This document shows positions 17,882 through 34,141 of a stretch of DNA of 64,000 nt, one piece after another. This DNA comes from Symbiodinium sp. CCMP2592 (taxonomy: Eukaryota > Sar > Dinophyceae > Suessiales > Symbiodiniaceae). A program made the position numbers and the translations under genes. The stretch spans positions 402,501 through 466,500 of the forward strand of contig CAJNDT010005523.1 of the NCBI GenBank assembly GCA_905221615.1, in the 5' to 3' direction. Numbering within the stretch: position 1 is the stretch's first letter; every line of letters starts with the position of its first letter. The notes under the pieces were generated by a model, which was not told the origin of the DNA, ran no database searches, and worked only from the letters and a program-made list of their open reading frames with translations.

Positions 17882-18478
17882 TCAAGCGATGCCTTGGCCC
17901 TTTCGCATCTCGCTGTCCATCACTTTCCAGACCTCCGTCCAGGACTCCTTGGTTTCTGGCGTCCAAAGCCCCTTCGGCTCCAGCACCTTCTCAAGAACCG
18001 CCAGCAAGGTCTTGCCTGCTGCATCGTAGTGCTCCTTGGTGACGTCGTGGTAGGCATGCCGCTCACCAAGGTAGTTCAGCACCGGCAGCAACGTGGGGAT
18101 GTCGTCCAAACCCTTCACCGCCTTGTCCACTGTCTGGGTGAAGCCCGCGACATGCTTATCGAACTTCTTCTGCTCGGCCTCATTTAGACGGTCGCCGAAG
18201 CTGAAGAGGTCTTTGGTGGACTGATCGGTCTCAAACAAAGCATCAAAGATCACCGTACCCACGGCCGTGAGTGTCTCCTTGGAAGTGTCTGGACAAACTT
18301 CCGCCCAAGAGCTTTGGACCAGATCCTTGTCGAGGGCGGACCTTGCAATCCTTGTGGAAGAGAGCGCAGCACGCGCCCCAGCGAAGGCGTTGCCGGCACG
18401 AAGCCCTGCTAAGCCGAGGGCAAGAGCCAGCAAGGCGAAGCCGGGGCTGGTGCGCCGGCGAGCTGGGACGGTGGACAT
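17882..18478 (-). CDS. Globin with N-terminal targeting leader
   Basis: A complete, uninterrupted 198-residue frame from a true ATG to TGA. Residues about 48-195 match the globin fold: A-helix Trp58 in LVQSSWAEV, Phe92 at the CD corner (LFSFGD), distal E7 His109 (FDKHVAGF), proximal F8 His141 (LGERHAYHDV) and Trp180/Trp184 in the C-terminal helix. Both haem-ligand histidines are present, so haem binding is expected, with oxygen or NO handling the likely role. Residues 1-47 are an extra leader: basic start, hydrophobic core FALLALALGLAGLRA, then NAFAGAR followed by Arg/Ser/Ala. This resembles the two-part plastid-targeting leader of peridinin dinoflagellates, though secretion is the alternative. 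The spacing of the ligands resembles neuroglobin or cytoglobin-like proteins. Lack of introns contrasts with the neighbouring genes. Confidence 0.88.
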   Translation of the reverse strand: MSTVPARRRTSPGFALLALALGLAGLRAGNAFAGARAALSSTRIARSALDKDLVQSSWAEVCPDTSKETLTAVGTVIFDALFETDQSTKDLFSFGDRLNEAEQKKFDKHVAGFTQTVDKAVKGLDDIPTLLPVLNYLGERHAYHDVTKEHYDAAGKTLLAVLEKVLEPKGLWTPETKESWTEVWKVMDSEMRKGQGIA

Positions 18479-18810
18479 CGCTGCGGAGGCAGGAAATCGC
18501 TTTCAGAACTCAGAACCTCTGTGGCCGCGTTAACAATAAGCAGTCGAGTAGAATTTCCAAGATATGTCAAGAAGCACGCCTTCTGAAAAAGTAGTGACTA
18601 GTGTGTCATCTGCAACTCCTAGTTCAGCTCAGACCATTCAACGAACACCCACAGCAGAGCTTCCAAGCCTTTGCAATGGCCCAGGGGGACTGCGCAACCA
18701 AGGGAGCTGGAGACAGACGCAGAGTTGTGGCAGGTTCCTCCCTCCACCTTCGGTTGGCCGGAAGAGTCAGTACTATCACTATTGATGTTACCATATACCA
18801 CTAATCACTA

Positions 18811-20112: not shown

Positions 20113-20589
20113 CACCTCCTGTGTGGCTTGCCGGTACCTTGAACCAATGCGCGGGGTTAGGCAAAGCTGATCGAGGAAGCAATGCGAAACCTGAAGCCGT
20201 GACATACAATAAGCAAAGCTATCAGAAGTGGGCACGACCAACAGAGCAGGAGCTTGTTCGCCCAAGCACTGCTTTATGCGGTTACCCTATGTGAAGCAGA
20301 CGCAGCACCATAAGTAGCTACAACATGTGTGACAAGAGCGCATGACAAAACCCCAAGCTGAACTAAGGGGGGCCTGGGCTAGCACGAACTGTTAAGCAAT
20401 AAACTAAACCGAAACTAAACCTGAAACCAAAAACAGGATTTGGGTTTTAGATTGCGTTTTCTTTGGGGGCTCAAGGTTCAAGGTTCAATCCTGAACAGTG
20501 TTTCATTCCGAAACGAGACCCCAACATCACATGTCATGCGTAATCCTGTGACTCGAACTCGAAGAAAAACCCAGCAAACCTGCTGCCAC

Positions 20590-20662
20590 CCTACACCCTA
20601 AACCCAGAAACCTTTCAAACCACGTAAACCCTAAACCCTAAAGGCCCTAAACCCAGAAATCC
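20590..20662. repeat. Telomere-like CCCTAAA patch
   Basis: Several exact CCCTAAACCC units with short spacers on the top strand. It is the cleanest of the internal telomere-like patches in the window. Confidence 0.7.
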
Positions 20663-30544: not shown

Positions 30545-31466
30545 GACTGATGCTCGAGACGCATGCCTATAGGGTTGGATCACAAGCAGATACCCCAGCC
30601 AAGTCCCAGCTGACGTTCCTAATGCTGGCCATGTGTAGGTCCAACATCTACGGGCACTGGCAGCTGATGCTCACGATGAGTGGCTGGATTTCGGTCAGGT
30701 ATTCCGGAGCGGTCGCAGCTGATGCTCACGATGCTTGCCTGCGGGCTTGGTCTCGGTCAGTCATTGTGGTTGGTACCAGTTGATGCTAATGCAGAGTTGT
30801 TGGGTCTTGTTCTGTCCCCATGCTCATAATGCTCGGCTGCGCAGCCTGATTCCCGACACTCTTTGGATCGATGTGTGGCTGTCGGTCCATTCTCGGTCAG
30901 TACACTGGAGCATTCCCAGCTGATGCTCATGATGCGTGGCTGTGTGGTTTCCATCAATACGCTGCAACAGTCTTTTCGGAGTGGCCCCAGTTGAGGCACG
31001 ATCTGTGGACTTCAGGAGGTTTTCATCTGATGCGCATGATGCTTGTCTGCGGAGCAGGATGATGCCCAGACAGAACAGTCCCGGCTGCTCATGATCCGTC
31101 GCTGCATCTGATGCTCATGATGCCTGCCTGGTGTTTGTGCTTTTTGGTCTGGTGCACCGGAGCGTTTCGGGCTGATGCTCATAATGCTGCCTCGTGTGCT
31201 CGGTTTCGGTTAGCTCGTGTTGGATCGCAGGCAGGTGCATCAGCTAGGTCCCAGCTGACGCTCATACTGCTGGTTACGGGTCCGGTCTTGGTCAGACATT
31301 TACGGGTGCAGCTGATGCTCATGATGCGTGGCTGTGCGGTTTGATTTAGTCAAGTACGCCGGAGCGGTGGCAGCTGATGCTCGCAATTCTTGATTGCGGG
31401 CTTGGCTTAGCTTCTGAAAGATAACCCCAGCTGATGCTCACCATGCTTGGTGTTGGGGCACTGTTG
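30545..31466 (-). repeat. Inverted copy of part of the higher-order repeat
   Basis: From about 30545 the satellite core reads in reverse (CAGCTGATGCTCATGATGC). The order of landmark variants, including GGTTGGTACCAGTTGATGCT and the reverse of GAACAAGACCCAACAACT, mirrors the forward block at about 26.8-27.8 kb. Relative to that block it lacks about 60 bases near 30980. It continues beyond the 785-bp insertion at 32256. Confidence 0.8.
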
Positions 31467-32251
31467 CTTGGATCGTCGGGCTGGCTTATAAGTGTTTAAG
31501 CGACTTAGATAAATGGTTAGACGTGAAATATCCGTTTGCAGCACTTACACATAAGTAACTTACAAGGGTTATGTAAGTGGTACTAAGTCGGTTACATAAG
31601 TCCACTTGGCAAGTCATCGTGGTGACTTATAAGTCACTTAGGGTAAGTCCTATAAGTAAATCTTGGCAGTTATTGGCTTGTGCTCACCCCGGTCAAAAAA
31701 GTTTATTGAAAAATAAACTGTCCGCGTGCAAGTTTATTAAAAAATAAACTTGCAACGCGCAAGTTTATCAAAAAATAAAGTTGCCATGCGCAAGTTTATT
31801 AAAAAATAAAGTTGCCATGCGCAAAGTTAGTGGAAAATAAACCAGCGCTGGACCCGACCACAGCTAGCTAAATCGACTGTAAGTCACTTACGAGACTTAC
31901 GATAAGTGCACTTATACGACTTGCCGTAAGTGATGTATCTGATTAACAAGTGCTGGGAGATTACTTATATCTACTTATAGTAAGTCACCTAAAACCATTA
32001 CACCACTTATCCATAACTCCCTCCTGGCAAATACTAAGTGGCATATTCATTTAGGCCACTTAATAGAAGAACCCTCGTCAGTTATTATGTCTCCTAAACA
32101 AAAGATAATTAAATATCAGACAAACTAGACTTAGTAAGTAATGTTATCACACTTGTTAAATTGACATACTTGATATAACAAGTCCTTTGGCCCACATAGC
32201 AGCAATCCCCCAAGTCTGGTAAACACTTATAACCGACAGCGACGATCCAAG
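31467..32251. mobile_element. 785-bp inverted-repeat element inserted in the satellite
   Basis: The left end is CTTGGATCGTCG, seven variable bases, then TTATAAGTGTTTA (31467-31498). The right end (32220-32251) is its inverse with only the middle seven bases differing. The interior is AT-rich, unlike the satellite, and crowded with ACTTAT/TAAGTCACTTA motifs and short palindromes. No open frame could encode a transposase, so it fits a non-autonomous DNA element. The flanks are the two halves of one reverse satellite unit: GCACTGTTG on the left and CATGGAAACGATCCC on the right are adjacent in uninterrupted sister units at 26.85, 28.26 and 29.79 kb. No clear target-site duplication is visible. 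Confidence 0.82.
31692..31845. repeat. Palindromic tandem repeats inside the 785-bp element
   Basis: Four to five units of about 34 bases, each containing AAGTTTATTAAAAAATAAAC, which can fold on itself as a hairpin, joined by a GC-containing linker with TGCGCAAG. They sit near the middle of the element. Confidence 0.8.
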
Positions 32252-34141
32252 TGAGGGTTACATGGAAACGATCCCAGCTGATGCTCATAATGCTTGCTTG
32301 CGGGGCACGGTCGCTGGAAGACAATAAGGCTTAAATAAAATGCGCCGCTCTGACCGAAATAAAAACCTCACAGCCAGAGATGGAGAGTTCAACCGGAATC
32401 GCCAGGTATGTAACCGAAACACAGCACCAAAACCAAACATCATGAGCATCAGCTGGGACCGCTCCCAGATATCTGATCCGAAACCAAGCACGCCGCAAGC
32501 AAGCGCTGTGATTGTGAGCATCCATGAGCATCAGCTGGGATCGCTCCTGGGTCCTGGGTATGTGCCCGCCATCGGGCAACACAACTACGCATTATCAGCA
32601 TCAGCTGGGATCTTCGCTCCTAGGTACCAAAGAGCACAGCCACGCATGATGAGCATCAGCTGGCACGGTTGAATCCAAGCATGTTTAGCACCAGCTGGAA
32701 CCAGAGCGACGCATCTTGTTGTATTCCACCGAACGGACCCCGCGGCCAAACTCTATGAGCATAAGCTGGGTCCGCTCCTAGATATCTGACCAATTGTCAA
32801 CATCAGCTGCTGCGACTCGTCCCGTGTACCTGACAGAAATCAATCCTACGGCCACGCATCGCAAGCATTAGCTGCGAGCGCTCGTTACATGTTGGACCGA
32901 GACCGAACCCCTTAGCCAGCATGAGCTGGGACCGCTCCGAACCTCTCCGTTGACCTGGCCGAAATGAGTGCCTCACAGCTATGCATTACGGCATCCGCAG
33001 GGACCATTCCTAAACATCTGCGAGATCGAACCCCAATCAAGCATCATGAGCATCAGCTGCTACTGCTGCAGCATGCCTGCTAGCCACGTGTCGTGAGCAT
33101 CAGCTGGGATCGCCCCTTCGTATATGCGACCGCCACAACCAAGCATTATGAGCATCGGCTGTGACCACTCCGGTGGAAACAGATCTAACAACCATGCATC
33201 ACGTGCATCAGCGAAACCAAGCATTATAAGAGTCAGCTGGAACCACTCGGGGGTGTTTAACTGAAATTGGAACTCACAGCGACACATCCCGAGCTGATGC
33301 TGGCTGTGCGGTCCGATTTCGGTCAGACAGCCCATGCTCACATTGCGCTGCTCCAGGGTTTCATTTCGGTCAAACACACCGGGGCGGTTGCAGCTGATGC
33401 TCATATCATTCTTCGTTGGTTTTCGATCTTGTTCAGATGTCTAGTAGCAGTCTCAGACCAAGCTGATAATGCATGGCACGCTCTCGATCATATCCCAACT
33501 GATGCACATGATGTGTGCCTGTGGTGCCTGGCTGTGGTGTTTGTATGTGAATCGGAGCGGTTTCGGCTGATGCGTCATGATATGTACGGCGTCGCCGACT
33601 GATGCTAATGACGGGTGGCAATGGGGTTTGATCTCAGTCAGATACACCGGAGCAGTCACAGCAGGTGCTCACAATGGTTGCTTGTGGGTTTGGTTTCGGT
33701 TGGATCTCTAAGACCAGTAGCAGCTGATGCTCATTAAAAGCTTGGTCAGCGATCCCAGCCATGCATTTTACGCATGAGCTGCTCCTAAACCCAACAGCCA
33801 CGCATCGATGAGCATCAGCTGCTTCCCACAACCAGGAATCATGAGCATCGGCTGGGATGCATCACGCGCGCGTCAACTCCTAAGATCAAGATCTGCCATG
33901 GCAGCCATGCCTAAATAACTGACCGAAATCCAACCCGTAACCAAGCACAAATCTGCAGCCTCCATACACATCGGTGAAGCTGTGGCTTGAAACCCTATGC
34001 CAGCTCTACCGTCGCGAAGCAGCGCGGATGCTTGCAACTGCGCAAGAAAAACGGTTTACTCGAATTGCAATTAGGAGCTTCCAGGAATATGTGGTACTGA
34101 TTTGGGCTTCTATATTATCCCCCTTCCCCCAGACATTCTAA

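Follow-up and report, generated by a model that had tools for sequence, protein, structure and literature searches.

The window, a 64,000-nucleotide stretch of contig CAJNDT010005523.1 of Symbiodinium sp. CCMP2592 (positions 402,501 to 466,500), contains a 785-bp inverted-repeat element that is mobile and has recently moved, a MITE-like non-autonomous transposon. We are fairly confident that this window element is a deletion derivative of large two-gene transposons whose transposase mobilises it in trans. As a passenger, the window element is unremarkable. More surprising is the large family to which it is linked, which is numerous and combines a two-gene organisation and 2-bp pyrimidine-purine target-site duplications (TSDs) with a putative transposase that lies outside Pfam and bears a RAG1/CACTA signature. 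With large two-gene elements and a specific candidate transposase now linked to the short passenger, its movement becomes testable.

Structure of the element and its insertion site

The limits of the window element, which the initial annotation had drawn from the sequence of the window, proved exact to the base (Table 1). That annotation had also described 32-base ends mirroring each other except for seven central bases; accordingly, 27 of the 32 positions pair, the outermost 12 are identical, and all five mismatches lie inside the 7-base central block, five of whose seven bases differ. The inverted repeat extends to 40 nt at 80% identity. The seven variable bases are part of an end pattern that recurs in the large elements described below. 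The interior was said to be AT-rich and full of one motif, and we found it to have a GC content of 0.38 and to hold 28 ACTTA/TAAGT words, 14 per orientation. Across 2000 first-order Markov resamplings, such words numbered 4.0 on average and never more than 12. There is no transposase gene in the window element, as first noted: only four frames of at least 40 amino acids (ATG, GTG or TTG starts) overlap it, and the longest, with 71 amino acids, runs out of the element.

Table 1. Features of the window element and its flanks (positions in the window).
Feature	Position	Strand	Basis
785-bp non-autonomous inverted-repeat transposon (MITE-like)	31467..32251	+	Full-length copies with the same ends elsewhere in the genome
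Left terminal inverted repeat, made of blocks of 12 bp, 7 bp (variable) and 13 bp (TTATAAGTGTTTA)	31467..31498	+	Inverted-repeat pairing
Right terminal inverted repeat	32220..32251	-	Inverted-repeat pairing
Left TSD copy (TG), 2 bp	31465..31466	.	Dinucleotide match in 10/10 short elements, trinucleotide match in 0/10
Right TSD copy (TG), 2 bp	32252..32253	.	Dinucleotide match in 10/10 short elements
4.6-copy tandem repeat, 31-bp unit	31699..31842	+	Similar repeats at the loci of larger related elements C336, C5017, C5311, C5074 and C4190
Stretch with all 28 ACTTA/TAAGT words, none within the tandem repeat	31489..32229	.	Proposed transposase-binding motif
Right half (element positions 414-785)	31880..32251	+	78% identity to one end, on the ORF2 side, of a degraded large element (C2291)

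The surrounding satellite preserves the site as it was before insertion. The three unbroken sister units that had been named all lie on the minus strand. Those near 26.84 and 28.24 kb of the window contain both GCACTGTTG and CATGGAAACGATCCC exactly, while the third, at 29.78 kb, is a variant with the second word CATGGAAACGATCCC present and AGCTGTTG on the other side. The element is flanked on either side by TG, which the initial annotation overlooked. Once the element and one TG are removed, 7 nt remain between TTG and CATGG, a spacing that matches all three sister units and bears out the proposed insertion into one specific satellite unit. The satellite itself occupies 22.8-33.8 kb of the window; its basic word, CAGCTGATGCTC, appears in both orientations, and blocks of it recur at a spacing of 1398 bp (26839, 28237).

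Copies, target-site duplications and empty sites

We searched the genome assembly (1,098,105,373 bases, 5383 contigs). As had been guessed from the window alone, the host is a dinoflagellate: the 21-base spliced leader of this group matched the assembly 636 times with at most one mismatch (318 forward, 318 reverse), against 0 matches for the reversed control. A DNA search with the window element returned at least 45 matches. At least nine are full-length copies, six of them 99-100% identical over 785 bp and the others 92, 88 and 78%; the matches listed further include seven partial copies (C3336, C90, C2291, C5056, C5267, C269 and C5351), and the other 29 matches cover 57-89 bases and concern the repeat region. 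The six young copies differ from one another at 0-8 of 785 positions, and two of them (L005 and L006) are identical in sequence at separate places. All nine full-length copies sit in unrelated flanks, which is what the initial annotation had proposed to look for as confirmation of mobility. Like MITEs, the window element is short, AT-rich and non-coding, with inverted ends, a TSD, near-identical copies and a larger coding relative with similar ends; it differs from them in its low copy number, with at least nine full-length copies and a few partial ones in 1.10 Gb.

Some of these partial relatives deserve a separate mention. The relative on C90 (L011), at a contig end, has a degraded and extremely AT-rich left part, as if changed from C to T, and the neighbouring DNA looks likewise. 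The three loci on C5267, C269 and C5351 (L014-L016) are at least 99% identical over 4.1 kb or more, a stretch that contains a 278-bp relative of the element as well as a frame that appears kinase-like by eye.

The comparison of flanks that had been suggested as a way to reveal a target duplication uncovered one of 2 bp (TA, TG or CA): the same dinucleotide stands on both sides in 10 of 10 short elements, a matching trinucleotide in 0 of 10. These ten are the nine full-length copies and the 278-bp relative in L015, with the near-identical L014 and L016, which share its flanks, counted together with it as one case. Three larger elements (C4940, TG/TG; C5074, TG/TG; C4190, TA/TA) bring the total to 13 of 13, with TA in seven cases and TG or CA in six. 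Similarly, the outer dinucleotide at 15 ends of the C336 family of large elements was TA, TG or CA in 14 and TC in one, figures to be read with the bias that the pattern searches that found the large elements required a pyrimidine-purine dinucleotide before the end.

To find empty sites, we joined four targets without their element and searched the genome with them, scoring 40 places of 263 candidates. Uninterrupted copies among these 40 places belonged to the targets of L003 (37), L005 (two) and L004 (one), and none to that of L002. In all seven junctions that we read (two for L005, one for L004 and four for L003), exactly the element and one dinucleotide were missing, without any scar. Both C5124 and C1166 hold an uninterrupted L005 target, with 100% identity on one side and 99.9% on the other over ~1.0-1.1 kb each, and the empty counterpart of L004 in C5214 is 99.6% and 93.8% alike on its two sides.

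These data bear directly on two other explanations. Spread of the window element only through segmental duplication or within the satellite, to which we give practically no credence, could appeal to the surrounding satellite, which is itself duplicated with its 1398-bp spacing, and to the three copies of the 278-bp relative in L014-L016, which have one duplicated context. However, nine full-length copies have unrelated flanks and a TSD each, and three of them have exact empty sites; for the window element, the unrelated flanks and the empty sites refute duplication as the only route, and the possibility of a spread confined to the satellite array, raised in the initial annotation, is contradicted by the same nine copies. 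It is also very unlikely that the window element is a non-autonomous Tc1/mariner transposon. TA is the standard mariner target and seven of the 13 TSDs are TA, but the six that are TG or CA depart from a strict TA target, and this reading is weakened because of these non-TA targets.

Large two-gene elements with similar ends

A genome search for a pyrimidine-purine dinucleotide followed by the 12-bp end matched 57 places, compared with 24 in the control. Beyond the known short copies, these 57 places included a single further inverted pair, which delimits an element of 18,217 bp (C4940:950507-968723). It includes a run of 5000 N; the rest of it, over which the gene content was read, has a gene for a 690-aa protein towards one end and, towards the other, a gene for a 467-aa protein (ORF2). 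Its ends share the outer 12 bp with those of the window element, and 17-19 of 21 terminal bases agree.

The 690-aa protein had 64 matches in the genome including itself, scored out of 748 candidates, with identities of 100, 98 and then 61 down to 33%. The members of a ~60% family that we read (C336, C5017, C5311 and C553) have the end sequence CTTGGAGAGTCGGGCCGGTTATAACC, and a 3972-bp element on C5074 has one end of this C336-family kind and CTTGGAAAGTCGGTCTTGGTTATATTC as the other. The same layout recurs in these ends: an outer block is followed by a variable one and then by GGTTATA, which reads GGTTGTA in C4940. The contigs C336, C5017, C5311 and C2663 also matched the repeat region of the window element, a link through the tandem repeat that may reflect a shared simple motif.

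ORF2 had at least 93 matches including itself, and the two-gene layout is conserved: an ORF2 match lies upstream on the same strand within 30 kb for 47 of the 64 transposase matches, pairs that are not independent cases as many matches are near-identical copies. Of these pairs, 46 are spaced by 7.7-16.7 kb; the remaining one, at 23.2 kb, is on C4896, where two transposase genes have the same ORF2 as their partner. ORF2 was found downstream on the same strand for none of the 64, and there was one opposite-strand pair; for 17 of the 64, an upstream partner was absent from the match lists, whose counts are lower bounds. The one large element that was measured is 18.2 kb long, and the gene spacing suggests sizes of ~12-20 kb.

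Several observations connect the window element with these large elements besides the terminal bases. ACTTA/TAAGT words reach 35.7 per kb in the window element and 1.2 in the rest of the window; likewise, three terminal stretches (300-400 bp) of large elements have 20.0, 22.5 and 26.7 per kb, against 0.5, 1.5 and 0.9 inside. At C2291, a stretch corresponding to element positions 414-785 (78%) forms the end of a degraded large element, with an ORF2 relative on its inner side, and ORF2 starts 1.36 kb from that end, compared with 1.40 kb in C4940. This link comes from a single locus, which may instead combine an ORF2 relic with an adjacent partial short copy, and we found no transposase gene in the 18 kb inside that end apart from one marginal match of 51 aa (E 1e-3). 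Beyond their terminal 14-24 bases, the window element and the C4940 ends aligned no better than expected by chance. A genome pattern search for the full 32-bp ends with up to three mismatches found 20 places, each an end of a short or partial copy and none an end of a large element, while the bare 12-bp end had 191 matches against 147 in the reversed control, most of them due to chance.

Taken at the level of sequence, the large two-gene elements are the likely source of the window element, which would have arisen from one of them by loss of both genes and retention of the two ends. The large-element transposase (690 aa in the C4940 copy) would recognise the 12-bp terminal block together with the subterminal ACTTA/TAAGT words, its candidate binding sites. 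We infer that this protein acts as a transposase on the window element as well, excising it and joining it to a pyrimidine-purine dinucleotide (TA, TG or CA) that would be doubled upon insertion. Such movement would be of the cut-and-paste type, carried out by a DDE enzyme.

The putative transposase and its possible relation to the CMCT clade

We aligned 11 relatives of the 690-aa protein, with identities to the first of 31-58%. D145, E146, D238, E239, C257, C260, D350 and H353 were invariant in all 11 rows, and H500, H504, E522, R523 and H525 in all 10 rows that reach this region. The putative transposase carries the order D-D-CxxC-HxxxH-E (C257-x2-C260, H500-x3-H504), which the available portion of PMC12730594 gives as the signature of the CMCT clade (CACTA/EnSpm, Transib, RAG1 and kin). 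The corresponding residues of mouse RAG1 are, in the accessible text of PMC4914335, D600, D708, C727, C730, H937, H942 and E962. The second D is separated from the C by 19 residues in both RAG1 and the putative transposase, and the last H from the E by 20 residues in the former and 18 in the latter. When the labels of 75 invariant positions were permuted, the signature with RAG1-like spacing was obtained in 0 of 200,000 permutations, a result that holds for 10 alignment rows (truncated row L057 dropped) and for criteria chosen after the motif was seen.

The 690-aa protein matched no Pfam family at E 1, and among 11 family members there were weak matches to four other Pfam families, none of them a transposase. 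A PDB search with the transposase profile gave no match, and sub-profiles of the motifs matched neither RAG1 nor Transib in the PDB. Comparison with one RAG1 sequence using hhalign gave a Prob of 0.64, at a location away from the motifs. A search of the genome with PF02992 was silent, but its control was equally silent; among viral contigs, we found no relatives of the putative transposase.

The elements themselves resemble the CMCT clade in their 2-bp TSD, within the 2-5 bp of the clade, and differ in their termini, CTTGG..CCAAG (CT..AG) instead of the CA..TG found in most cases. The TSD is TA in ESTA and 3 bp long in published fungal EnSpm families, compared with TA, TG or CA here. CACTA elements, too, are known to have a second gene and subterminal DNA rich in motifs. 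Judging from its conserved residues, the putative transposase probably works like a CMCT transposase; we leave membership of the clade unproven because Pfam, PDB and hhalign revealed no homology and because the ends are CT..AG. The initial annotation had been unable to place the window element in a known superfamily, a question now partly resolved inasmuch as its ends, TSD and subterminal motif tie it to large two-gene elements with a CMCT-like putative transposase.

We found no description of these large elements in the one open-access library of papers that we searched. The balance of the evidence tilts slightly towards a DNA transposon lineage that is new to the literature and may even rank as a superfamily; it would be defined by the RAG1/Transib/CACTA active-site and zinc signature without detectable homology, an ORF2 ~8-17 kb upstream, ends made of CTTGGA..GTCG, a variable block and GGTTATA/GGTTGTA, and 2-bp pyrimidine-purine TSDs; its members would be plentiful in the genome of a dinoflagellate and would mobilise short passengers without genes, such as the window element, into other genes and repeats. 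If the RAG1-like signature does reflect descent, this family would bear on the history of the RAG, Transib and CACTA enzymes.

Interrupted reading frames and the introner question

Dinoflagellates are rich in short transposon-like insertions, and they are known in particular for introners. The window element might be one of these, namely a transposon that is spliced out of the mRNA when inserted in a gene and so becomes an intron, although we consider this unlikely. Of the six young copies, all but L001 and L006, namely L002-L005, lie inside frames that are open without the element and one dinucleotide (386, 413, 717 and 432 aa, respectively); these four are also the only ones to do so among the nine full-length copies. 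By comparison, frames of at least 300 aa cover just 1.8% of the window and 3.2% of 30 kb at other loci, backgrounds of which the latter comes from one of eight loci only and neither is a random genome sample. Moreover, the element ends in AG in either orientation, and a hypothetical GA donor four bases in would, as worked out by hand, lengthen the coding sequence by six bases without breaking the frame in any of the four cases. Against this, the junctions have no 5' splice site, since the coding-strand TSDs (CA, CA, TA and CA) leave no GT, GC or GA spanning them. The targets of L003-L005 have other uninterrupted copies, so that insertion would be tolerated without need of splicing, and the seven empty junctions are all scar-free. 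The window copy sits in a satellite, and the DNA around L002 has a GC content of 67-70%, with other frames open as well. The published introners of dinoflagellates (PMC9860276, as far as its available text goes; Roy 2023 as cited in the accessible part of PMC11453091) are also non-autonomous inverted-repeat DNA elements, and the frequent position of window-element copies in open frames recalls them; the same available text reports median family lengths of 30-654 and, for Symbiodinium microadriaticum, a 4-bp TSD, whereas the window element has 785 bp, a TSD of 2 bp instead of 4 bp and no splice donor at the junction. A MITE-like passenger of the large two-gene elements would account for the window element, and an introner role, though conceivable, is not needed.

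The large elements may nevertheless matter for introner studies. In the available part of PMC9860276, introner mobilisers were sought up to 10,000 bp from an end, and also among RepeatModeler repeats, and frames were matched against known transposases in a database. A search of the kind described there could overlook an 18-kb element with a transposase that lacks database relatives.

Two of the interrupted frames have recognisable features of their own. The 413-aa frame of L003 (C262:50430-54214) has a CCCH-like C-terminus by eye and belongs to a near-identical high-copy repeat, with 37 places among those scored, which is perhaps a retroelement. The 717-aa frame cut by the young copy in L004 (C5377:237690-241474) is tyrosine-recombinase-like by eye in its C-terminal part and had no Pfam match. 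A Pfam search with six one-sided pieces of the interrupted frames yielded only rve, in L002 and below the cut-off.

Other features of the window

Elsewhere in the window, a 206-aa stop-to-stop frame on the minus strand (17882-18502) contains a Pfam Globin domain (E 9.6e-19) and has a hydrophobic N-terminal part resembling, by eye, a targeting signal. At 20588-20654 there is a short tandem array of the telomere-like unit ACCCTAA.
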